The notes beneath the pieces are model-generated. The model searched no databases and was not told the DNA's origin. It saw only the letters and a list, made by a program, of their open reading frames with translations. A stretch of DNA of 64,000 nucleotides from Aquisphaera giovannonii. GTDB taxonomy: Bacteria > Planctomycetota > Planctomycetia > Isosphaerales > Isosphaeraceae. Shown here one piece after another: positions 7,187 through 19,705 of this stretch. The stretch lies in assembly GCF_008087625.1 (NCBI RefSeq), contig NZ_CP042997.1:310001-374000 (forward strand), written 5' to 3'. Every line of letters starts with the position of its first letter. The first letter of the stretch is position 1. The translations under genes were made by a program, and so were the position numbers.

Positions 7187-9961
7187 ATGAAAGCACTACG
7201 GCTCTTTCTCATCCTGCTCGCGATTCCCATGGCGCCATCGGCCCTCGGCGGCCCCCCGCCGGGCGCCTGGCTCCAGTTCCGCGGGGACCGCGGCCTCACG
7301 GGGCACTCGTCGCTGAAGGGGCGGATCCGCCATCCCGGGACGGTCTGGACGCAGTTCGTCGGGGCCCGCGCGACGCTCCTGGCGGTCCGGTTGGCGGGGG
7401 ACGGAACGACGACCGTGCCCCTGCCCGCGGCGGATGCGCATCCGGGGCGGTGGTCGGAGGTGCTCGACCGCTGGCGCGTCGGCCCGGCCCTGGCGGACGT
7501 CGATGGGGACGGCAACGTGAAGGAAACGGCCGTCGGCCCGCAGCATCGGATCGGCAAGTTTCTGGCCGATCGCCCGGGGCTCCAGAAGCTGGAGGTGGAC
7601 TCGCTCTTCTCCGCCCAATCCGATCCCCCGCCGCCGGCGACCGCGCGGCTGCTGGCGCGTCGCGGCGGGGCCTGGGAACGCGTCTGGGCGAGCGTGCCGA
7701 TCCCGCTCCAGTACGTGGCCAACCCGATCACGGGCGACTTCGACGGCGACGGCCGCTCGGACGTGGCCGTGACCCCCTGGTACGACCTCTGGGTGTTCGA
7801 CCTCCGGACCGGCGCGTTCAAGTCGAAGGCCCGCTTCATGCCGGAGGGGTCCGAGAGCGGCCGGGCTTACGGATGGCTCGGGGCCGCGGACTTCGACGGC
7901 GACGGCCGCCAGGAGTTCGTCGTCCTCGGCGACTTCGAGAACTTCCTGGCCGTTCTCGGCTGGAAGGACGGCACGCTCGCCCCGCTCTGGTCCCGGCTGA
8001 TCGAGCGCGGGATCGCCATGAAGAAGACGATCCTCAGGACGGGGGCCCTGCCCGTCCGGGACATCGACGGCGACGGCCGGCCGGAGATCGTGGTCTCGCT
8101 CCACGACGCGGCCGGCGACGGCCGCTGGCACACCCTGGCGCTCGAAGGCCTGACCGGGCGGACGAGGCTGGACCTCCCGGATCAGGTGCTCGCCGGCCCG
8201 ATCGACCTGGACGGCGACGGCTGCGACGAGCTGGCCTGCACCGAGGCCCGCGGCCCGCTGATCCCCGACCGTGCAAGGCTCACCGTCTTCGGCTTCAAGG
8301 GGAAGAGACTGCGGGCCCGCTGGACGGCGGACGGCGCGGCGTACCAGGTCCAGACGCTGGGCGAGCTGCCGGCCTCCGTGAACACCGACGCCCAGACGGG
8401 GACGGCGACCCTGCTCGCGGTCCCGTCGGACGACCGGGGCCGGCCGTGCTTCGTCACGCGGAGGGCCGCGGATCGGGACTCGGGGCGGATCGAGCTCGCC
8501 TTCTGGCAGGCCGACGGGGCCGGCGAGGTCCGGCGTCGGGGCCTGATCGCGGGCCCTCACCTGGAGGCCCTCGCGGGCCGGGGCGAGCCGGCCGGCCGGG
8601 CGGAGGTCCTGGTCCGCGCCCGGGTTCCCGGCGACGAGGCGAGCGACGTCGCGTTGAGTTCCCTCGAAGGGACGATCCTGTGCTCCCGGCGAGAAGCCCC
8701 GCCGCTCTCGACCCCGGTCGCGGGCCGGCTGGACCCGCGAGGGCGCCCGAGCGTGGTGGTCCAGGGGGCCTGCGATCGCCTGGTGGCCTTCCAGCCGGAG
8801 CGGGGCGGGAGGCCCGCGAAGGCGATCGCGCGACGGCCCGGGCGGGGGCTCTACACCGGCTCGGGGCGGTTCGGCGGCGGGGCGGGCTACGGCGGCGTCG
8901 TGCTGGCCGACCTGCTCGGCGACGGCTCGCTGGCCGTCGTCGCGGCGACGAGCTCGCCCGACGGCCACGCCCGGCTCGTCGCGTACGGGCCGACGGGCCG
9001 GCCCCTCTGGGAGCATGACTTCGACGACCTGCCGGGCTCGCCCCCCGAGTGGAACCTCGGCGGCCTGACCCTCTGGTTCGCCGGCAAGTTCACCGACCCC
9101 CGGCGCGACGACGTCCTCGTCAACATCCGCCGCAGCACGATGCACAGCGACGAGGCGTTCCTGCTCGACGGCCGCGACGGCCGGCAGGTCTGGCACCGCA
9201 CGCAGGGCGCGAACGCCGCGGGCAACCAGCGGGCCTGCGGCGGGAGCTGGATGGCCGCCTTCGACCAGGACGGCGACGGCCGGGACGACGCCCTCTGCCT
9301 CTACCCCGACGTCGTCTCGGCCTTCGACGGCCCGTCCGGCAGGCTCCTGCTCGACCGCCACACCAATCGCGATGTGTTCAAGGACGTATGGGTCATGTAC
9401 GCCGTCCCGGCCGCCGCCGACTTCCTGCGCCGGGGCCGCCCGCAGGTCCTCTACGGCGGCAACGCCACGATGTTCGCCCTGCTGGCGGCGGACGGCTCCC
9501 CCATCTGGCGGCACGGCCCGACGCCGGGATGGCCGGACGTCCTGCCCGGGATCGGCGACCTCGACGGCGACGGGGCGATCGAGCTGCTGAGCGTGGGGCA
9601 TCGGCGGCCTCCCGGCCCCGGGCAGGAGGTGCGTTGCTACGACGCCGCGACCGGCAGGCTCGAATGGACCCTGCCCCTGGCCGGGCTCGACCCGACCTCC
9701 GAGGCGAGCCCGCCGATGGCCCCCGCCACCGCCGACCTCGACGGCGACGGCCGGGACGAGGCGGTCGTGGCCCTGGGGAGGACCCTGCTCGCGGTGGGCA
9801 CCTCGCCGGACGGCAAGTCGGGCGCCGTCCGCTGGTCCCTCCCCTTCCCGGATCCGCTCGGCCCCCCCGCCATCGCCGACACCCTGGGAGACGGCACCGC
9901 CGAGGTCGTCGTCACGTGCGGCGACGGGAATGTCTACGGAGTGGGAGGGGCGGGCCCTTGA
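7187..9961 (+). CDS. Large secreted FG-GAP/VCBS repeat protein
   Basis: 924-residue protein with a signal peptide (MKALRLFLILLAIPMAPSALG) and a repeated beta-propeller-type architecture. Calcium-binding-style repeats of the form D-x-DGDG-x-x-(D/E) occur near residues 104, 184, 235, 291, 340, 693, 791 and 850, matching the FG-GAP/VCBS family. The segment between residues about 350 and 690 lacks clear repeats, so there are probably two propellers with a spacer. Such proteins are extracellular and structural or ligand-binding; no catalytic motif is visible. The ATG at 7187 has GAGG six bases upstream. It appears monocistronic. Confidence 0.88.
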   Translation: MKALRLFLILLAIPMAPSALGGPPPGAWLQFRGDRGLTGHSSLKGRIRHPGTVWTQFVGARATLLAVRLAGDGTTTVPLPAADAHPGRWSEVLDRWRVGPALADVDGDGNVKETAVGPQHRIGKFLADRPGLQKLEVDSLFSAQSDPPPPATARLLARRGGAWERVWASVPIPLQYVANPITGDFDGDGRSDVAVTPWYDLWVFDLRTGAFKSKARFMPEGSESGRAYGWLGAADFDGDGRQEFVVLGDFENFLAVLGWKDGTLAPLWSRLIERGIAMKKTILRTGALPVRDIDGDGRPEIVVSLHDAAGDGRWHTLALEGLTGRTRLDLPDQVLAGPIDLDGDGCDELACTEARGPLIPDRARLTVFGFKGKRLRARWTADGAAYQVQTLGELPASVNTDAQTGTATLLAVPSDDRGRPCFVTRRAADRDSGRIELAFWQADGAGEVRRRGLIAGPHLEALAGRGEPAGRAEVLVRARVPGDEASDVALSSLEGTILCSRREAPPLSTPVAGRLDPRGRPSVVVQGACDRLVAFQPERGGRPAKAIARRPGRGLYTGSGRFGGGAGYGGVVLADLLGDGSLAVVAATSSPDGHARLVAYGPTGRPLWEHDFDDLPGSPPEWNLGGLTLWFAGKFTDPRRDDVLVNIRRSTMHSDEAFLLDGRDGRQVWHRTQGANAAGNQRACGGSWMAAFDQDGDGRDDALCLYPDVVSAFDGPSGRLLLDRHTNRDVFKDVWVMYAVPAAADFLRRGRPQVLYGGNATMFALLAADGSPIWRHGPTPGWPDVLPGIGDLDGDGAIELLSVGHRRPPGPGQEVRCYDAATGRLEWTLPLAGLDPTSEASPPMAPATADLDGDGRDEAVVALGRTLLAVGTSPDGKSGAVRWSLPFPDPLGPPAIADTLGDGTAEVVVTCGDGNVYGVGGAGP

Positions 9962-10077
9962 CCCCGGGATGAGGCCCGGCGGGGTCGGCCCCTCCCGCCC
10001 CGGATCGCGACTCCAGGACGCCGGGGCTGCTTTTTTTCAACACTCCGTTGCCTGCTGTTTATGAAAAGTTGATCAGG

Positions 10078-10108
10078 TTGAGTGGAGGGCCTAAGGTTTA
10101 TATATGAT
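10078..10108 (+). promoter_or_regulatory. Possible sigma-70-like promoter of the exosortase unit
   Basis: An AT-rich island in a GC-rich intergenic region carries TTGAGT (10078) and TATATGAT (10101), 17 bp apart, about 40 bp before the first gene. Spacing is ideal but the boxes are imperfect. Confidence 0.35.
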
Positions 10109-10147
10109 AGTGGAAGCTTGTATTGTACGTGATGGGGGCGTTGGGCC

Positions 10148-10405
10148 ATGCTCGGACACCGGGGCGGCACGAGGCGTTGGAACACCGAGAGTTTGCGTCG
10201 CCTGGGCTTCGCGGCCGGGTTGGCCATCTGCCTCTCGGCATCCGCGGCCGCGCATGCCTCGGCGCGGGGCGGCCCCGAGGGCGGCAAGAACCAGACGCCG
10301 GAGATCGACTCGGCGTCCGCGGCGGGTGCCCTGACGGTCCTGACCGGCGGCTTCCTGATCGTGGCGGATCGGATCCGCAAGGCTCGGTCTCGCCGGGAGC
10401 CATGA
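10148..10405 (+). CDS. VPEID-CTERM-type sorting substrate, tiny exported protein
   Basis: 85-residue protein built as an exosortase substrate. It has a signal peptide (FAAGLAICLSASAAAHASA) and a very short mature stretch (RGGPEGGKNQ). Then comes a TPEID motif in the place of VPEID, a hydrophobic helix (AGALTVLTGGFLIVADRI) and a basic tail (RKARSRREP). This is the tripartite signature of PEP-CTERM-like sorting signals, here of the exosortase E class. If both ends are processed, only about 10-20 residues remain, so the product is essentially a peptide. Its stop overlaps the exosortase start by four bases (ATGA), so the two are co-translated and the pairing is clear. Function of the mature peptide unknown. 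Confidence 0.85.
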   Translation: MLGHRGGTRRWNTESLRRLGFAAGLAICLSASAAAHASARGGPEGGKNQTPEIDSASAAGALTVLTGGFLIVADRIRKARSRREP

Positions 10406-12060
10406 CCTCGCCCGCGGCGGCCGGAATCCCCGGCCGGGAGGGAGGCCGTCCGCAAGGCCGGCGTGATCTCCTGCTCGCGGCGGCGCTGCTCGCGATCCCG
10501 GTCGGCGAGGCCCTCGGCCTGACGATCGCCTTCGACTCCGGCGCCGCGACGGATCCGCTGCTCGGGGGCCTGGTGAGCCGATCGCACGCGATCCTGGAGG
10601 TCGCCATCGTCATGGCGACGGTCGGCTCCCTGCTCGGGATGCGGAGTCGCGAAGGAGGGGGCGGCCCGTTCGGCCTGCCCGCCCCCGCGAGGTGGTCATG
10701 GGCGTTCTTCGTCGCGCATCTTGTGGCGCTCTCGCTGTTCACCTGGATGACGTCCGTCGTCCTGTCCGGGGGGCCTCGCCCGGCCGCGGAGGGCCTCGCA
10801 TGGGCGGCCGGCTGGTCGCTCGCGGCCGTGGCGACGTTGCTGGGCTGGGTCGCGATCTGGGTGGAGCCGGCCCGGTGGCGGCCCCTGGCCGTGCGGGGCC
10901 CGGGCCTCTTCCTGGCGCTCGGCGCGGCCGGCCTGGCCGCCTGGGGATCGGGGCGGATCGCCGAGGGGTTGTGGGTGCCCCTGAGTCGGCTGACCCTGGA
11001 AGCCGTCCATCTCCTGCTCCGCCTCTACGCCCCGGACGCGGTCTGCGATCCCGGGCTCCGGCTCGTCGGCACATCGAGGTTCTCCGTCGAGATCGCGCCG
11101 GCCTGCTCGGGCTACGAGGGGATCGGGCTGGTCCTGGTCCTGACCGCCTGCTTCCTCTGGATCTGCAGGCGGGAACTCCGCTTCCCCCGGGCGCTCCTGC
11201 TCATCCCGGCGGGCGTGTCGCTGATCTGGCTGGCCAACGTGGGCCGGATCGCCACGCTGATCGTCATCGGCAGCCTCGGCCATGAGGGGCTGGCCCTCGG
11301 CGGATTCCACTCGGTCGCGGGCTGGCTGGCCTTCACGGCCGTCGGGCTGGGGATCGTGGTCGTCGCTCGCTCGTCGCCGTATTTCTCGAGGGACGCGGAC
11401 CTCGCCCGGCTGCCGGCGCGTGAGTCGCCGACGGAGCCCTACCTGCTGCCGATCATGGCTATCCTCGTGGTGGCGATGGCCTCGCGCGGCCTCGTCGCGG
11501 GGTTCGACGTCCTCTACCCCCTGCGGGTCGTCGCCGGCGGGGCGATGCTGCTGGCGTATCGGCCGCGAGACGCAAGGCTCCGGCCGTCGGCGTCGTGGCA
11601 GGCCTTCGCGCTCGGCGGGGCGGCGTTCGTCGCCTGGATGGCGTTGGAATCCCTCGGCCGGGGCGGGCCCCCGCCGGAGGCGCTCGCCCGCGTCACACCA
11701 CCTCCGATGTCCCCGGCCCTGCTGGCGGGCTGGCTCGCCTTCCGGGTGCTCGGCTCGGCCCTGGTCGTCCCGGTCGCCGAGGAGCTGGCCTTCCGGGGCT
11801 ACCTCACGCGCCGGCTGATCGCCCCGGATTACTGGAACATCCCCGTCGGCACCTATTCGCATTCCTCCTTCGTCATCTCCTCGGCCCTCTTCGGGATGCT
11901 CCACGATCGGTGGGCCGCCGGGGTGGCGGCGGGGATGATCTACGCCGCCGCCCTCTACCGGCGGGGCGAGCTCTCCGACGCCGTCGCGGCGCACGCGACC
12001 ACCAACGCGATGATCGCCGCCGCGGTGCTGATCACGGGGGACTGGTCGCTCTGGGCCTGA
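10402..12060 (+). CDS. xrtE: Exosortase E fused to CPBP intramembrane protease (VPEID-CTERM system)
   Basis: 552-residue polytopic membrane protein with two catalytic modules. The N-terminal exosortase module has the Cys in ACSGYEGIGLVL, the Arg in NVGRIATLIVIG and the His in GGFHSVAGWLAF, the Cys-Arg-His triad that cleaves and transfers sorting substrates. The C-terminal CPBP (Abi) module carries EELAFRGYL, FGMLHDRW and HATTNA, the Glu-Glu-Arg/His/His-Asn motifs of intramembrane metalloproteases. The fusion is diagnostic for the exosortase E class. The ATG at 10402 overlaps the substrate gene stop; an in-frame extension further upstream is antisense-like Arg-rich sequence and was rejected. 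Confidence 0.95.
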   Translation: MTSPAAAGIPGREGGRPQGRRDLLLAAALLAIPVGEALGLTIAFDSGAATDPLLGGLVSRSHAILEVAIVMATVGSLLGMRSREGGGGPFGLPAPARWSWAFFVAHLVALSLFTWMTSVVLSGGPRPAAEGLAWAAGWSLAAVATLLGWVAIWVEPARWRPLAVRGPGLFLALGAAGLAAWGSGRIAEGLWVPLSRLTLEAVHLLLRLYAPDAVCDPGLRLVGTSRFSVEIAPACSGYEGIGLVLVLTACFLWICRRELRFPRALLLIPAGVSLIWLANVGRIATLIVIGSLGHEGLALGGFHSVAGWLAFTAVGLGIVVVARSSPYFSRDADLARLPARESPTEPYLLPIMAILVVAMASRGLVAGFDVLYPLRVVAGGAMLLAYRPRDARLRPSASWQAFALGGAAFVAWMALESLGRGGPPPEALARVTPPPMSPALLAGWLAFRVLGSALVVPVAEELAFRGYLTRRLIAPDYWNIPVGTYSHSSFVISSALFGMLHDRWAAGVAAGMIYAAALYRRGELSDAVAAHATTNAMIAAAVLITGDWSLWA

Positions 12061-12292
12061 CGGGCCCTCCCGGGCGAGGGGGCCGGTCCGCCGGCCCACG
12101 TCGCGGACGCGACCGGCGCGACGCCATCCGCGAAGTGCGGCCCGCGGATGAGGGGCGCGGTGGGCGCGTCCCGCCCGCGGCTCCGTCGCAGCCCGGTCGA
12201 CGACCGGGGCGCCGATCGCCCCCCGGCCGGCCTCCCCGTGCGATCCCGGGGAACACGGCCACGAACGGGGCGTCGGGGCCGGGCCCGTCGCG

Positions 12293-13783
12293 TCACGGTC
12301 GGGGCTTCGCCCCCGTCGTCTCGCCGTCGGCGGGGGCCCCTTCCCCGTCCGCCGGACGGACGGCGCGGCCCTTGAGCTTGCGGGAGGCGTCGCCGAGCTC
12401 GTGCTGCATGGCGTCGGCCCGGGCCTTCAGGCGGGCGACGACGTCGGGGTGGGCGGGGGCGACGTTCGTGGTCTCCCCGAGGTCGTCGCGGAGGTTGTAG
12501 AGCTCGAGCCCGACGGGCAGCTTCCTGTACTTGCCGGGGACGCCGCCGCGGCCGGGGGCCTGGCCTTGCATCGTCCGGGAGTCGTGGGGGAGCAGGAGCT
12601 TCCAGTCCCCGCCGCGGACGGCCTGGAGGCTGCCGTCATACCAGATGAAGAGGGCCTCGTGCGGGCTCTTCGCGCCGGGCGCGGCCAGGAGCAGCGGCGT
12701 GATGTCCCTGCCGTCGATCGGGAGCCCCGGCAGGCCGGCTCCCGCGAGCGCGGCGAAGGTCGGCAGCAGGTCGATCGTCGCGGCGACCTCGCGGCAGGTG
12801 GAGCCCGCCGGGATGCGGCCCGGCCATCGGGCCAGGAAGGGCTCGCGGATGCCCCCCTCGAAGCTCGTCCCCTTGCCCTCGCGGAGCGGGCCCGCGGAGC
12901 CGGCGTGGTCGCCGTAGCTCAGCCACGGGCCGTTGTCCGAGGTGAAGATCACCAGCGTCCGGCCGTCGAGCTCCAGCTCCTCGAGCGTCCGGAGGATGTC
13001 CCCCACGCCGGCGTCGATCTCCTCCAGCACGTCGCCGAACGCCCCGCGCGAGGTCCGGCCGGCGAAGGCGCCGGAGCGGAAGAGCGGCACGTGCGGCATG
13101 CTGTGCGCCAGGTAGAAGAAGAACGGCCCGTCCTTGTGCTTGCGGATGAAGTCGACCGCCCGCCGCGAGTACGTGCCCGTGAGCGACTCCTGGTCCTCGG
13201 CCGTCACGTCCGGGTCGACGACGCGGTCGCCGTCGATCATCGGCAGGTCGGGGTAATTCCTGGGCGCCTCGGGGTGGTGGGGCCACATGTCGTTGGAGTA
13301 GGGCAGGCCGAGGTACTCGTCGAAGCCGTGGTGGACCGGGAGCTGGGAGGGCTTGCAGCCGAGGTGCCACTTGCCGGCCATGCCCGTGGCGTAGCCCCGA
13401 GCCTTGAGCATCTCGGCGATCGTCGTCTCGGCGTGCGACAGCCCGACCTTCGCCTTGGGCCCGAGTGCGCCCCGGATCGAGACCCGCTCGTGATAGCACC
13501 CCGTCATCAGGGCGGCCCGGGACGCGGAGCAGACCGCGCTGGAGACGTAGAAATCGGTGAAGCGGACGCCCTCGCGGGCCAGCCGGTCGATGTTCGGGGT
13601 CGCGTAGCCGGTCGCCCCGGTGCAGCCGAGGTCGCCGTACCCGAGGTCGTCGCAGAAGATGAGCACGATGTTCGGCGGCGGGTCGGCGGCCTCCGCCCGG
13701 GAGGGGGTGAGGCACGGGCACGCGAGGAGGAGGAGGGAATGGATGATCGTCACGCCCTGATGTCGCGTCGCGCCGGTCCGCAT
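12293..13783 (-). CDS. Secreted sulfatase (arylsulfatase A-like)
   Basis: Type I sulfatase that hydrolyses sulfate esters, probably on sulfated polysaccharides, outside the cytoplasm. A signal peptide (GVTIIHSLLLLACPCLTPS) is followed by the metal-binding start PPNIVLIFCDDLGYGDLGC. The formylglycine motif is CSASR (in VCSASRAALMTG), with the modifiable Cys in place, then GKWHLG and the second metal site IFTSDNGPW. At 496 residues it has the usual length. The ATG at 13783 has GAGG seven bases upstream; the frame runs on 20 residues further but without signal-peptide character. No formylglycine-generating enzyme is in the window. It is transcribed toward, and converges on, the exosortase gene. 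Confidence 0.94.
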   Translation of the reverse strand: MRTGATRHQGVTIIHSLLLLACPCLTPSRAEAADPPPNIVLIFCDDLGYGDLGCTGATGYATPNIDRLAREGVRFTDFYVSSAVCSASRAALMTGCYHERVSIRGALGPKAKVGLSHAETTIAEMLKARGYATGMAGKWHLGCKPSQLPVHHGFDEYLGLPYSNDMWPHHPEAPRNYPDLPMIDGDRVVDPDVTAEDQESLTGTYSRRAVDFIRKHKDGPFFFYLAHSMPHVPLFRSGAFAGRTSRGAFGDVLEEIDAGVGDILRTLEELELDGRTLVIFTSDNGPWLSYGDHAGSAGPLREGKGTSFEGGIREPFLARWPGRIPAGSTCREVAATIDLLPTFAALAGAGLPGLPIDGRDITPLLLAAPGAKSPHEALFIWYDGSLQAVRGGDWKLLLPHDSRTMQGQAPGRGGVPGKYRKLPVGLELYNLRDDLGETTNVAPAHPDVVARLKARADAMQHELGDASRKLKGRAVRPADGEGAPADGETTGAKPRP

Positions 13784-14361
13784 CCGTCGTCCTCTTCGCA
13801 AGACGGGCCGCCCGGCCCCATGCCGCGGCCCGGGTCGGAGCATACCCCAGGGCGCGCGCCCCCGCTACCCTCGTGCGAGCCTTCGGGATGCGCGGGGTCC
13901 GTCCCGCCGCCGGCCGCGGGCCGGCCTCGGACGCCGACGGCGCGCAGGGGGTGGGCCGAGGGCACACGGGGCCCCGCGATCGAGGCGGGCCGGATGGTGT
14001 GGACGGGCTGCGGCGAGGAAAGTCCGCCGCGGCGCAGCGCAGGCCTCACTACAGCTCCGACCGGGATTGGTCGGGGCGGGTGTGAAGGCGCCGCAATTCG
14101 TCAAATTTGGTGATTGCTATTGAATCCGACCATGCTCCGCGAGACAATGTTTTTCACGCGAAACCCGCCGCGGCCCGGAATCGTGCGGTCTTGCACCTCC
14201 GGCATCCTTCCGAGGCCCGCGGAGTTCGAGCGGCGCCGGGTTCCCGACCCGGGCCGCTCATCCTCCTCGTATAGGTTAGGTCACGCGATTTCGGGCGCTG
14301 CGCCGCGTTCGGGATAATTTTCCCGTGGCGAGGCAGGCCCCGCGTCGGGAGTACCCTATCG
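13784..14361. other. Divergent intergenic region with possible promoters
   Basis: Between the sulfatase (leftward) and the lipoprotein (rightward). An AT-rich patch at 14095-14160 contains TTGAAT, 17 bp and GACAAT. A second one near 14289-14318 has a poor -35 and GATAAT about 44 bp before the lipoprotein ATG. A GAGGAAAGTCCG stretch near 14015 resembles a conserved RNase P RNA segment, but no other RNase P features follow. No gene is seen. Confidence 0.4.
14289..14318 (+). promoter_or_regulatory. Weak promoter candidate for the lipoprotein-DUF1559 pair
   Basis: GATAAT at 14313-14318 is a five-of-six match to the -10 consensus, within AT-rich sequence ahead of the lipoprotein. The -35 region (TTTCGG at 14289) is poor. 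Confidence 0.3.
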
Positions 14362-14712
14362 ATGAGGCGAGCGTCCGCATCTGCCGTCGGATTCCCCCAC
14401 GACCGCCCGGGCCCGGGTCCGATCCCCGGCCGGGGGCCCGGGGATCGAATCCTCCCCACCCCGCCCCCCCGCTCGCGGCCCCTCGCGGCGGCGGTGGCCC
14501 TCGTCCTGGGCCTCCTGGCGGGCCCGATCGTCGGCTGCAATCACCCCGACGCGGGCTCGATCGACCTTTCGGCCGCCAAGGCCGCCGCCGCCAGTTCGGG
14601 CCAAAAAATGCTCGAGCCGGGCAGCATCAAGCGGCCGGGCCGGGCCCGCACCCAGCCGAGTGCCGAGGCCCCCAAGCTGGCCCCGACGGGCCGGACCGCG
14701 GCGAAGCACTGA
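14362..14712 (+). CDS. Small lipoprotein preceding DUF1559 gene
   Basis: 116 residues with a Pro/Arg-rich start, a hydrophobic segment ([19 protein letters not shown]) ending in a lipobox-like GPIVGC, and an Ala/Lys-rich low-complexity mature part. The position of the Cys and the short mature region fit a lipoprotein. Similar tiny lipoproteins commonly sit next to prepilin-like DUF1559 genes in planctomycetes, as here (80 bp apart, same strand). GGAG lies about nine bases before the ATG. The signal peptide is unusually far from the N-terminus (Cys near residue 59), so the true start may be downstream, but no better ATG is present. Confidence 0.7.
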
Positions 14713-14792
14713 GCCGCGTCGGCCTCTCCCGTCCCGTCACCGTCGTCCGCGTCGCGAACAAGTCCGCCCGCCCATCGTCGAGGGGTCCAACC

Positions 14793-15866
14793 ATGCCCGC
14801 CCGTCCCATCCGCCGCGCCGTCCGGCGTGGCTTCACGCTGATCGAGCTGCTGGTCGTGATCGCGATCATCGCGATCCTGATCGCGTTGCTGCTCCCGGCC
14901 GTGCAGTCGGCCCGCGAGGCCGCCCGCCGAGCCCAGTGCACCAACAACCTGAAGCAGATCGCGCTGGCCGCGATCAATTACGAGTCGAGCAGCGGCTGCC
15001 TGCCGCCGGGCCACTTCTTCACCCGCTATTCCTGGGGCTACTACTACGGCTCGAACTGCTTCGTCCAGATGCTCCAGTACTTCGAGCAGCAGGCGGTCTC
15101 CAACGCGTTCAACTTCAACCTCAGCTCCTACGACAGCCCGAACCACACCGTGGCCGGCGCCGCGCTCTCGTCCCTGTGGTGCCCGAGCGACGCCGCGGCC
15201 TCCGAGCGGTTCCCCATCGACGCCGACCTGCAGAACTACTACGGCCCGCCGGCGCCGGGGTTCGCGGGTGTCATCTTCTCCAGCTACGCCAGCAACAACG
15301 GCCCGTGGGCGATGTACTACGACCTCTCGAGCCCGGACCTGGACCCGGCCGTCGCCCCCCTGGCCTACCGGGCGTGGGTGGCCGCCACGCGCGGAGTCAT
15401 CTTCCCGGGCTCTTCCATCAGGCTGGGGGGGATCACCGACGGCACGAGCAACACGCTCCTCTTCGGGGAGCACGCCCACGGGATCCTCGCCCCCGGCGAC
15501 CAGAAGACCAGCCAGCACTGGCACTCGGGCTGGTGGGGCGACACCCAGTTCGACACGATCAACACGATCAACGCCTACAAGACGCTCCGGTCGGCGATCG
15601 CCTCCGGGGCCTGGTGGATCGCCCTGCGGTCGGCCTCCAGCTTCCACCCCGGCGGGGCCAACTTCGCGCTCTGCGACGGCTCGGTCCGGTTCCTCAAGGA
15701 GACCATCGACACGTGGCCGACCGACCCGGCGACGGGCTACGACCCGGTCGGGGTCGCGTACGGGCCCAATTACGGCGAGTACTACATGGGCACGGCGAAG
15801 CCCAGGGTCTACCAGGCCCTGTCCACCCGCGACGGCGGCGAGGTGATCAGCAGCGACGCGTATTGA
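14793..15866 (+). CDS. DUF1559 domain protein with type II/IV prepilin leader
   Basis: 357-residue protein with a textbook class III signal ([20 protein letters not shown]), cut by prepilin peptidase after the Gly. Then come the characteristic [20 protein letters not shown] segment and the DUF1559 C-terminal part with [18 protein letters not shown]. This family is strongly expanded in Planctomycetes and thought to form surface pseudopilin-like structures. The ATG at 14793 was chosen because it leaves a short basic leader directly before the cleavage site; the frame is open much further upstream, but through the lipoprotein gene in another register. Confidence 0.95.
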
Positions 15867-17523: not shown

Positions 17524-18180
17524 ATGGACGAGCCGCCCGCCACGCGGTGCTCGCTGATCGTCAAGCTCCGCGACCCGGCCGACACGGCGGCCTGGCGGGA
17601 GTTCGTGGAGATCTACGAGCCCCTGATCCACCGGCTGGCCCGCCGCAAGGGGCTCCAGGAGGCCGACGCGCACGACCTCGGCCAGGAGGTCTTCCGGGCC
17701 GTGGCCGCGTCCGTCGGGCGGTGGGACCCGGCGCGGGGGCGGTTCCGGGCGTGGCTCTCGACGATCGCCCGCAACCTGCTGCTCAACTTCCTCACGAGGG
17801 GCCGCGCCCAGCCCCGGGGCAGCGGGACGACCAGCGTGCAGGACCTGCTGGAGGCCCAGCCCGCGGCCGACCCGTTCGCCACGGCGATCTTCGAGGACGA
17901 GCACCGCCGCCGCCTCTTCCGCTGGGCGGCCGAGGACATCCGCGGCGAGTTCACCCCGGCCACCTGGCAGGCCTTCTGGGGGACCGCCGTGGAGGGCCGA
18001 AAGCCGGCCGAGGTCGCCGACTCGCTCCGCCTCTCGGTCGGCTCCGTCTACGTCGCCCGCAGCCGGGTCCTGGCCCGCCTCCGCCGCCGGATCGAGCGCC
18101 TCGAGCTCGAGCCCGGCCGCGAGGCGGCGATCTCGAACGCGAAGGAGGCCCACCATGAAGGCCCGATGGGATCCCTGTGA
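17524..18180 (+). CDS. ECF-type RNA polymerase sigma factor, planctomycete class
   Basis: 218-residue sigma factor. Region 2 is clear (YEPLIHRLARRKGLQEADAH, then DLGQEVFRAVAAS and FRAWLSTIARNLLLNFL), followed by region 4 with its helix-turn-helix (KPAEVADSLRLSVGSVYVAR). The ATG at 17524 has a perfect GGAGG about ten bases upstream. The last 26 bases overlap the start of the kinase gene, so the two are translationally coupled. Sigma factors coupled to Ser/Thr kinases are frequent in planctomycetes, and the kinase or its zinc finger probably controls sigma activity. Target promoters unknown. Confidence 0.93.
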   Translation: MDEPPATRCSLIVKLRDPADTAAWREFVEIYEPLIHRLARRKGLQEADAHDLGQEVFRAVAASVGRWDPARGRFRAWLSTIARNLLLNFLTRGRAQPRGSGTTSVQDLLEAQPAADPFATAIFEDEHRRRLFRWAAEDIRGEFTPATWQAFWGTAVEGRKPAEVADSLRLSVGSVYVARSRVLARLRRRIERLELEPGREAAISNAKEAHHEGPMGSL

Positions 18181-19705
18181 CGCCGGCCGCCTGGGCCTGC
18201 TGGCCGAGGACCGGCTCCCCCCCGGCGAGCTCACCCGGCTGGAGCAGCACCTGGAACGCTGCCCGCGATGCCGCGACACGCTCGACCGGATCGTCGGCAC
18301 CGACCGCTGCGCGGAGGAGGCCCGCCGGTACCTCGACGAGGAGGGCGGGGATGAGGACCTCCTCGGCCCCTCGGACCACCCCGACGGCCCGCTCGACTTC
18401 CTCGCCCCCTCGGACTGGCCGGACTCGATCGGCCGGCTCGGCACGTACGAGGTCAAGGGCGTGCTCGGCCGCGGCGGCATGAGCGTGGTCCTCAAGGCGC
18501 TCGACCCGGCGCTCGGGCGGGTCGTGGCGATCAAGGTGATGACGGCCTCGCTGGCGAGCTGCGGGGCGGCCCGGCGGCGGTTCTTCCGCGAGGCGAAGGC
18601 CGCGGCGGCGGTCGTGCACGAGCACGTCGTCGGCATCTTCGCGGTGGACGAGGCGGCCGGCCTGCCCTTCCTGGTCATGGAATATGTCCCGGGCCGCTCG
18701 CTCCAGGACCGGCTGGACGCCCTGGGTCCGCTGCCGGTCACGGAGGTGCTGCGGATCGGGATGCAGACCGCCTCCGGCCTCGCCGCGGCGCATGCCCAGG
18801 GGCTGGTGCACCGCGACGTGAAGCCGGCGAACATCCTGCTGGAGGACGGCGTCGAGCGGGCCCGGCTGACCGACTTCGGCCTCGCCCGCGCCGCGGCCGA
18901 CGCGGCGATGACCCGCAGCGGCGTCGTCGCCGGCACGCCCCACTACATGGCCCCGGAGCAGGCCCGCGGCGAGACCGCCGACCCGAGGGCCGACCTCTAC
19001 GGGCTCGGCTCCACGCTCTACGCGACGCTCGCCGGCTTCCCGCCGTTCCGGGCCGAGTCCCCCCTGGCCGTCCTCCGCCGCGTCTGCGACGACGAGCCCC
19101 GCCCGCTCCGCGGCATCAACGCCGAGGTCCCGGACTGGCTGGAGGCGATCATCGCGAAGCTCATGGCCAAGGATCCGGGCCGCCGCCACCAGTCCGCCGC
19201 CGAGGTCGCCGACCTCCTCGCCGCCTGCCTCGCCCACGTCCAGCAGCCCCTCGCCTCCCCGCTGCCGGACGCCCTGAGGAGGCGGCCGGACCGGCGACGA
19301 AGATGGGCCGTCGCTGCGACACTCGCCCTCGCCCTGACCGCCGCGACCGCGTCCGCGTCGCTGGCGGCCTGGAAGGCGTGGGGGCCGTCCCCCGCGGTGG
19401 AGGATGTGGGCGCGAGGCAGACGTTCTCGGCCCCTTCCCCGCGGCCGTCCGCCCCCGCGGACGGCGGCCCCGATGACATCCTGCGTCAGCTCGAACAGGC
19501 CCGGGCCCACGCCGCCTCGATCGAGGCGGAGCTCCGCCGCCCGGCCCGCCCCGACGAGGACGGCGTCTCCGGCCTCGCCGGCGACCTCGCGACGCGTGCC
19601 GAGGCCCTCGAGCGGGAGCTCCTCCCGGCCCGCGCGTCGCCGTCCACCGATGGTTCCCGCGTTCCCCCGACCTTCCCCAGCCCCACCAAGGAAAGCAGGA
19701 GATGA
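18155..19705 (+). CDS. Ser/Thr protein kinase with N-terminal anti-sigma-type zinc finger
   Basis: 516-residue membrane kinase. The N-terminus carries HLERCPRC (H32, C36, C39), the H-x3-C-x2-C pattern of zinc-binding anti-sigma domains. The kinase domain (about 96-370) has GRGGMSVVLKALD, the ATP-binding Lys in VVAIKVM, the catalytic loop HRDVKPANILL (about 222), TDFGLAR (about 242) and APEQARG. A transmembrane helix (about 386-408, VAATLALALTAATASASLAAW) is followed by a short extracytoplasmic part with coiled-coil character (LEQARAHAASIEAEL). Overlap with the sigma gene and the zinc finger suggest that it binds the sigma factor and links its release to phosphorylation; this is inference. Confidence 0.93.
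   Translation: MKARWDPCDAGRLGLLAEDRLPPGELTRLEQHLERCPRCRDTLDRIVGTDRCAEEARRYLDEEGGDEDLLGPSDHPDGPLDFLAPSDWPDSIGRLGTYEVKGVLGRGGMSVVLKALDPALGRVVAIKVMTASLASCGAARRRFFREAKAAAAVVHEHVVGIFAVDEAAGLPFLVMEYVPGRSLQDRLDALGPLPVTEVLRIGMQTASGLAAAHAQGLVHRDVKPANILLEDGVERARLTDFGLARAAADAAMTRSGVVAGTPHYMAPEQARGETADPRADLYGLGSTLYATLAGFPPFRAESPLAVLRRVCDDEPRPLRGINAEVPDWLEAIIAKLMAKDPGRRHQSAAEVADLLAACLAHVQQPLASPLPDALRRRPDRRRRWAVAATLALALTAATASASLAAWKAWGPSPAVEDVGARQTFSAPSPRPSAPADGGPDDILRQLEQARAHAASIEAELRRPARPDEDGVSGLAGDLATRAEALERELLPARASPSTDGSRVPPTFPSPTKESRR

Follow-up and report, generated by a model that had tools for sequence, protein, structure and literature searches.

An exosortase E/CPBP protease fusion and its probable, nearly bodyless substrate in Aquisphaera giovannonii

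We identified two overlapping genes, one for a very small sorting substrate and one for an exosortase E/CPBP protease fusion, in the window, a 64,000-nucleotide stretch of the Aquisphaera giovannonii genome (Table 1). The 85-residue substrate has the layout MLGHRGGTRRWNTESLRRLGFAAGLAICLSASAAAHA-SARGGPEGGKNQT-PEID-SASAAGALTVLTGGFLIVADRIRKARSRREP, with an arginine-containing start followed by a hydrophobic core that has SASAAAHA at its end. An earlier note on this DNA had described a self-contained unit tied together by an ATGA overlap, in which the substrate consists of a signal peptide, a TPEID motif, a helix and a basic tail. We see the same anatomy in the open reading frame, the overlap is real, and the family matches of the enzyme given below agree with such a two-gene unit. 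The estimate of about ten residues between signal peptide and motif was right in that the substrate is nearly bodyless, although the count was slightly low: the spacer has 13 residues if cleavage is placed by eye between AHA and S, and 17 according to our script, which uses an internal TTG start and a different site. The tail scores 41.9 bits against our tail profile, among whose seeds it is itself included. The substrate has no match to any Pfam or NCBIfam family, and its tail differs from the consensus of the family and has no PGS after PEID, where many relatives have one.

Table 1. Features of the substrate-enzyme unit, in window coordinates
Feature	Position	Strand	Description or basis
Micro-substrate ORF, 85 aa	10148..10405	+	Signal peptide, spacer of about 13 residues, PEID, hydrophobic helix, basic tail
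Predicted signal peptide	10148..10258	+	Cleavage placed by eye between AHA and S, approximate; script chose another site
Predicted mature spacer SARGGPEGGKNQT	10259..10297	+	Predicted from sequence
PEID motif, hydrophobic helix and basic tail	10298..10402	+	Sequence, tail profile
ATGA overlap, substrate stop/enzyme start	10402..10405	+	Sequence
Exosortase E/CPBP protease fusion, 552 aa	10402..12060	+	NCBIfam and Pfam matches
Exosortase motifs C235 (CSGYEG), R282, H303	11104..11310	+	Invariant in 38/38 aligned relatives
CPBP motifs E460-E461...R465, F497...H501, H531...N535	11779..12006	+	Invariant in 38/38

The enzyme scores 203.6 bits (203.8 in the genome search) against TIGR04162, the exosortase E/protease family of the VPEID-CTERM system (cut-off 150), and 144 bits against the CAAX-protease-related family TIGR03008 (cut-off 81.05). 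Both halves are also over their Pfam cut-offs, as Exosortase_EpsH (32.6 bits) and Rce1-like (52.6 bits). The 38 aligned enzymes in which the motifs are invariant are the window enzyme and those of 37 of the 80 scanned loci. We take R282 and H303 to be catalytic residues of the exosortase half and FxxxH to be one of the CPBP protease motifs. The remaining two, EExxxR and HxxxN, are described CPBP protease motifs (PMC11980579). An AlphaFold2 model of the enzyme had a mean pLDDT of 83.4, and its best PDB match on a second look was a weak one to SpdC (residues 339-549, Z 6.9, rmsd 6.0, 180 aligned). There was no match to viral structures at E 0.001, nor of the enzyme sequence to PDB sequences at 0.01.

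The pair resembles the exosortase E/VPEID-CTERM system (TIGR04162 and TIGR04161) in having the exosortase-CPBP fusion over its cut-off, with both motif sets, and an adjacent short substrate with a PEID-type tail; the substrate and enzyme genes of Paracoccus likewise overlap by four bases, GTGA there and ATGA here. It differs in that the tail gives no match to the VPEID-CTERM family TIGR04161 (cut-off 33 bits). Three other planctomycete substrates reach 16.7-23.1 bits against this model (23.1 for the second substrate of the A. giovannonii genome), and three alphaproteobacterial substrates score 35.1, over the cut-off, and 29.7 and 32.0, slightly under it. A search of the whole genome with TIGR04161 at E 0.001 gave no match, and no control matched either. 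A profile comparison of planctomycete tails with four alphaproteobacterial tails gave a probability of 95.3 (E 2.2e-8). Since TIGR04162 is passed and TIGR04161 failed, the enzyme is a member of the system, and for the tail a diverged relationship is the most that can be claimed.

Other sorting systems share some of these features. Archaeosortase A, with its PGF-CTERM substrates, belongs to a homologous enzyme superfamily; its substrates include the large S-layer glycoprotein, and it is not known to have a fused CPBP domain. Its product is lipid-anchored (PMC7157517), and we borrow this model for the short product proposed here. The PEP-CTERM/exosortase (EpsH) systems also have a tripartite C-terminal signal and an enzyme of the same superfamily. 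In contrast to these, the window pair has a PEID tail and a fused CPBP domain, its enzyme scores only 35.2 bits against TIGR02602 (cut-off 105.55), and the same genome contains many PEP-CTERM matches together with a separate EpsH-type exosortase. The myxosortases MrtX and MrtJ are not known to have an exosortase domain. They provide a described case of a CPBP protease acting as a sorting enzyme, with MYXO-CTERM and JDVT-CTERM targets, and MrtJ resembles the enzyme described here in having one neighbouring target as its partner (PMC11980579). The MYXO-CTERM and JDVT-CTERM signals have an invariant motif cysteine, unlike the window motif, and the scores against the myxosortase families are low (28.9 of the 100 bits required for NF040914, 28.4 of 75 for NF033192). 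Searches for literature on exosortase E, or on exosortase with VPEID-CTERM, found no paper; the 2012 archaeosortase/exosortase paper lies outside their coverage.

The A. giovannonii genome (10.5 Mb, three contigs) has two exosortase E enzymes over the TIGR04162 cut-off. A 16-tail profile found two strong tails in it, one beside each exosortase E, and the four other matches listed had E 0.88 or worse (150 of 187 candidates scored in a first search, 77 of 77 in a second). The second unit (L157, about 9955000-9960500 of contig C1) has its own 68-residue substrate, and a 1157-residue SdrD_B protein adjoins it downstream. PEP-CTERM matches (TIGR02595) at E up to 1 number 44, in open frames of 135-721 residues, with 150 of 190 candidates scored. 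The EpsH-type exosortase lies at C1:227427, about 93 kb upstream of the window unit, and scores 150.5 bits against TIGR02602; from their appearance we take the frames beside it to be EpsI-like and GDP-mannose-dehydratase-like. Given this separate enzyme, we rejected the ordinary PEP-CTERM proteins as substrates of exosortase E. The earlier note had considered that other genes with VPEID or TPEID tails might be the real substrates. This fails because the profile search turned up two such tails among the candidates scored, each next to an exosortase E; as it gave no third tail, real substrates elsewhere in the genome were rejected.

The tail and the enzyme occur together beyond this genome. Among 45 Isosphaeraceae genomes, a strong tail (E <1e-11) was present in 17 of the 19 with the enzyme, a figure that is partly circular because the tails used to build profile A1 came from Isosphaeraceae loci with the enzyme next to them, and in none of the 26 without it, a count free of this circularity (Fisher 1.6e-10). 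The enzyme-positive set includes two genomes under the cut-off, G017 with the enzyme in two pieces and G023 with a partial one (132.9 bits), and weak tails in the enzyme-negative G034, G064 and G062 (E 0.014 to 0.095) were scored as absent. The strong tail was missed in G001 and G008, and in both of them the start of the enzyme gene lies at the edge of a contig. G001 has weaker tails with PEIA for PEID (L056 and L060; E 3.6e-5 and 3.6e-4), one of which stands after a Gln/Asn/Gly repeat. In a search of 198 genomes of the class, with at most 41 candidates scored per genome, a tail at E <1e-11 turned up in four further genomes that do not belong to the family, and all four hold the enzyme over the cut-off, a result likewise independent of how profile A1 was built; three other tail matches were weak (E 1.9e-4 to 0.007). 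When the sequences of 104 loci were shuffled five times, the tail profile gave no match over 20 bits and three over 9 (maximum 10.3), and on 27 real loci without exosortase E it gave at most 8.1 bits. These values stay far under the score of the window tail, and a chance pattern was rejected. Enzyme and tail distances were correlated (r 0.57, permuted maximum 0.17, n 49), which also mirrors shared ancestry.

Nearly bodyless substrates were found in many lineages. A scan of species genomes gave at least 80 loci, the 80 listed out of 187 relatives, under titles that include Planctomycetota, Acidobacteriota, Myxococcales, Deltaproteobacteria, Methylococcaceae, Cellvibrionaceae, Burkholderiales, Hyphomicrobium and further groups. 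In 88 of 104 loci a tail matched with 23 bits or more, a figure that is partly circular because the profile was seeded by a regular expression on the same loci (98 seeds); the 104 include two loci brought in by the tail itself (L046 and L054) and eight duplicates. Of the 16 loci with no tail, ten have 4 kb on both sides, and in these a looser pattern found no short substrate and one ordinary PEP-type tail (L137). With duplicates dropped, there were 103 candidate substrates in 80 loci, with starts and cleavage sites called by our own permissive rule, and the sizes that follow are for the 100 with a predicted signal peptide. Among the loci listed, the median distance from cleavage site to motif was 12.5 residues (at most 10 in 40 of the 100, at most 20 in 62, more than 100 in 13), and the median substrate length was 69 residues. 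The 13 long-bodied substrates come from a Rhodocyclaceae bin (L098), Methylococcaceae bins (L122, L128) and gammaproteobacterial bins (L140, L143). Substrates in three loci with 153-323 residues before the motif bear the same kind of tail, so it is the tail that defines a substrate. A single substrate per enzyme is not general, as 17 of the 80 loci contain between two and four tails.

Alphaproteobacterial plasmids have similar pairs. In the ten records examined of 15 with a match (nine of them annotated), we found eight short substrates of 57-88 residues (L153-L156, L174, L175, L178 and L179, of which L174 and L175 are near-identical Paracoccus); L177 has its substrate in an open frame of 205 residues, and in L176 no tail was found. 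Two of the short substrates (57 and 88 residues) are annotated as VPEID-CTERM proteins. The suggestion of a system not yet described is thus not supported, since the enzyme also bears an NCBIfam name: the bodyless substrate is common across phyla, within a system already named in databases.

Comparison of close relatives indicates which parts of the substrate are kept. For 47 pairs with at least 75% tail identity, which are not independent and include long-bodied substrates, mean identity was 0.85 in the tail (inflated because the pairs were chosen on tail identity), compared with 0.52 for the signal peptide and 0.31 for the spacer. Codon differences are the better guide. In the tails of ten hand-chosen close pairs, not all of them independent, 67 codons differ synonymously and 21 non-synonymously. 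Five of these ten pairs are unequal in total length before the motif and six, by our own rule, in spacer length, and the four with equal-length spacers have four synonymous and eight non-synonymous codon differences there. L008 and L012 have identical signal peptides and tails that differ at one residue, and their spacers are GGPNPT and GGGLEAA. The proline-rich spacer of L006 and L019 is mostly kept, with two of seven residues different, and the L123 paralogues have an identical spacer, VSS. In L142, L123 and L112 the spacer has two or three residues. From these codon patterns, the tail is under purifying selection between close relatives, and the short peptide often changes. The earlier note had proposed a search of related genomes for conserved mature-peptide residues; the spacer often differs even between close relatives.

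The genes around the unit are not universal. The window unit has directly upstream a 924-residue FG-GAP/PQQ-repeat protein with a signal-peptide-like start (7187-9961) and downstream, on the opposite strand, a sulfatase-family protein (PF00884; 12293-13843). Farther along the forward strand are an ORF with a putative prepilin-like segment, of a sort that planctomycetes often have (14325-15866) and, about 6 kb from the unit, a protein with Pfam Pkinase and putative zinc finger matches (18155-19702). The FG-GAP protein is absent from the neighbour clusters shown (three or more loci) and was rejected as a conserved partner. In clusters built from 87 loci, a fatty acid hydroxylase (PF04116) occurs within about 4 kb in seven (L085, L109, L110, L117, L120, L139 and L140, from Acidobacteria, Gammaproteobacteria and one deltaproteobacterium); all six members tested with Pfam were positive, L110 being the seventh and outside the test. 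This recurrence fits a possible link to lipids or to a lipid acceptor. A Poly_export cluster covers six of the 87 loci, four of them Methylobacter or Methylomicrobium, with both members tested positive, and polysaccharide genes adjoin exosortase E in five of the nine annotated alphaproteobacterial plasmid records. Exosortase and PEP-CTERM genes have been tied to the holding of polysaccharide on cells (PMC12188702). Several other clusters look like antisense frames of the enzyme. In L169 (genome G119; 7204-13999, minus strand), a protein with protein kinase and FGE-sulfatase domains lies between exosortase E and a 460-residue substrate frame.

The clusters also contain a recurrent large protein with SdrD_B domains over the Pfam cut-off. 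It lies beside exosortase E in eight of 14 Isosphaeraceae loci (L073, L074, L075, L081, L082, L086, L157 and L160; 14 of the 20 enzyme loci were surveyed), at L131, one of two loci labelled Gemmataceae, and in three of four alphaproteobacterial loci scanned (L153, L154 and L156). Our own SdrD_B profile was negative at the window, L092, L158, L159, L161 and L162, and by Pfam L162 has Big_3_5 repeats instead of SdrD_B. The SdrD_B proteins of the three Rhodobacterales plasmids (L153, L154 and L156) all end in DCLC.

This distribution bears on whether the sorting signal might have been split from its cargo, so that the bodyless micro-protein would serve in trans as a detached anchor or adaptor for a tail-less SdrD_B adhesin or an exopolysaccharide. 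The five SdrD_B C-termini inspected are without an exosortase E-type tail, and the domain is sparse, with six matches in the A. giovannonii genome; both points count in favour of the idea, as does the recurrence of SdrD_B proteins beside the enzyme. Against it, SdrD_B is absent from the window locus and from most others (present in 13 of 91 scanned, one of the 13 weak), and five further annotated alphaproteobacterial records have no neighbour named SdrD, as judged from annotation names only. We regard such an arrangement as unlikely. Another reading is that the micro-protein goes unprocessed and serves the exosortase as a small membrane subunit or as a regulator. Because signal peptide and tail are both conserved in the pairs L008/L012 and L006/L019, the functional form could be a two-helix hairpin. 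The substrates with bodies of 153-323 residues carry the same kind of tail, however, signal-peptidase-like sites were predicted in 100 of 103 candidates (by our permissive script), and the signal peptides of L002 and L018 have diverged, with 20 of 35 codons non-synonymous; an unprocessed subunit is likewise improbable.

The earlier note had suggested a peptide released by the two proteases, with a signalling or surface-coating role; as a signal, it would be secreted and act between cells. The product left after two cleavages would be short, the CPBP protease MroQ takes part in maturation of the AgrD pheromone, and some pheromones are hypervariable. Kinase-like genes form a cluster in four of the 87 loci, including the window, whose copy was tested and is the Pkinase protein mentioned above, and response-regulator genes a cluster in three, of which one was tested; G119 has its kinase-domain protein by the enzyme. 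A spacer of two or three residues would nevertheless make a poor fit to such a role, near-identical orthologues differ in it, and review of the clusters in three or more of the 87 loci showed no receptor family recurring in most loci within about 4 kb. A kept tail with an often-changing peptide, down to two or three residues, argues against a specific signal and for surface processing or anchoring, and we consider signalling quite unlikely. Least probable of all, and in our judgment very improbable, is that the window substrate is a degenerate remnant and that the real substrates lie elsewhere. Its tail is off the family consensus and NCBIfam does not recognise it, but the two tails found among the candidates scored in the genome each stand by their own enzyme, the enzyme motifs are intact, short substrates are common elsewhere, and the ordinary PEP-CTERM proteins have a separate exosortase.

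We favour, with a probability of roughly 0.6, a dedicated sorting pair of the exosortase E/VPEID-CTERM type that would yield a very short stub, either placed on the membrane or freed from it. The TIGR04162 match, the pairing of enzymes and tails, the invariant motifs of both halves, the conservation of the tail and the surface and lipid genes among the neighbours all speak for it. The layout, the pairing, the pattern of conservation and the intact motifs are observed; cleavage, acceptor, step order and role are inferred. In this account the signal peptide would export the micro-protein and the tail would keep it membrane-bound. The exosortase half would then recognise PEID, the helix and the basic end and cut at the motif. 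The short N-terminal stub could be passed to an envelope acceptor, either a polysaccharide or, as with archaeosortase A, a lipid; alternatively it could be released. The fused CPBP half would belong to the same pathway, probably by removing or trimming the helix left behind. Little seems to depend on which residues make up the stub, so it more likely serves the cell surface as a structural part or an anchor than as a message, and a surface role for the predicted product is plausible.

To our knowledge, the acceptor of bacterial exosortase substrates is an open question in the field. A nearly bodyless natural substrate encoded beside its enzyme would give a product small enough for direct mass spectrometry. 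If the micro-protein did anchor a separate molecule in trans, we know of no earlier sortase-like system in which the sorting signal and the displayed molecule are on separate chains. The frequent near-absence of cargo in different phyla suggests that, in this branch, selection maintains processing or anchoring itself more than what is carried.
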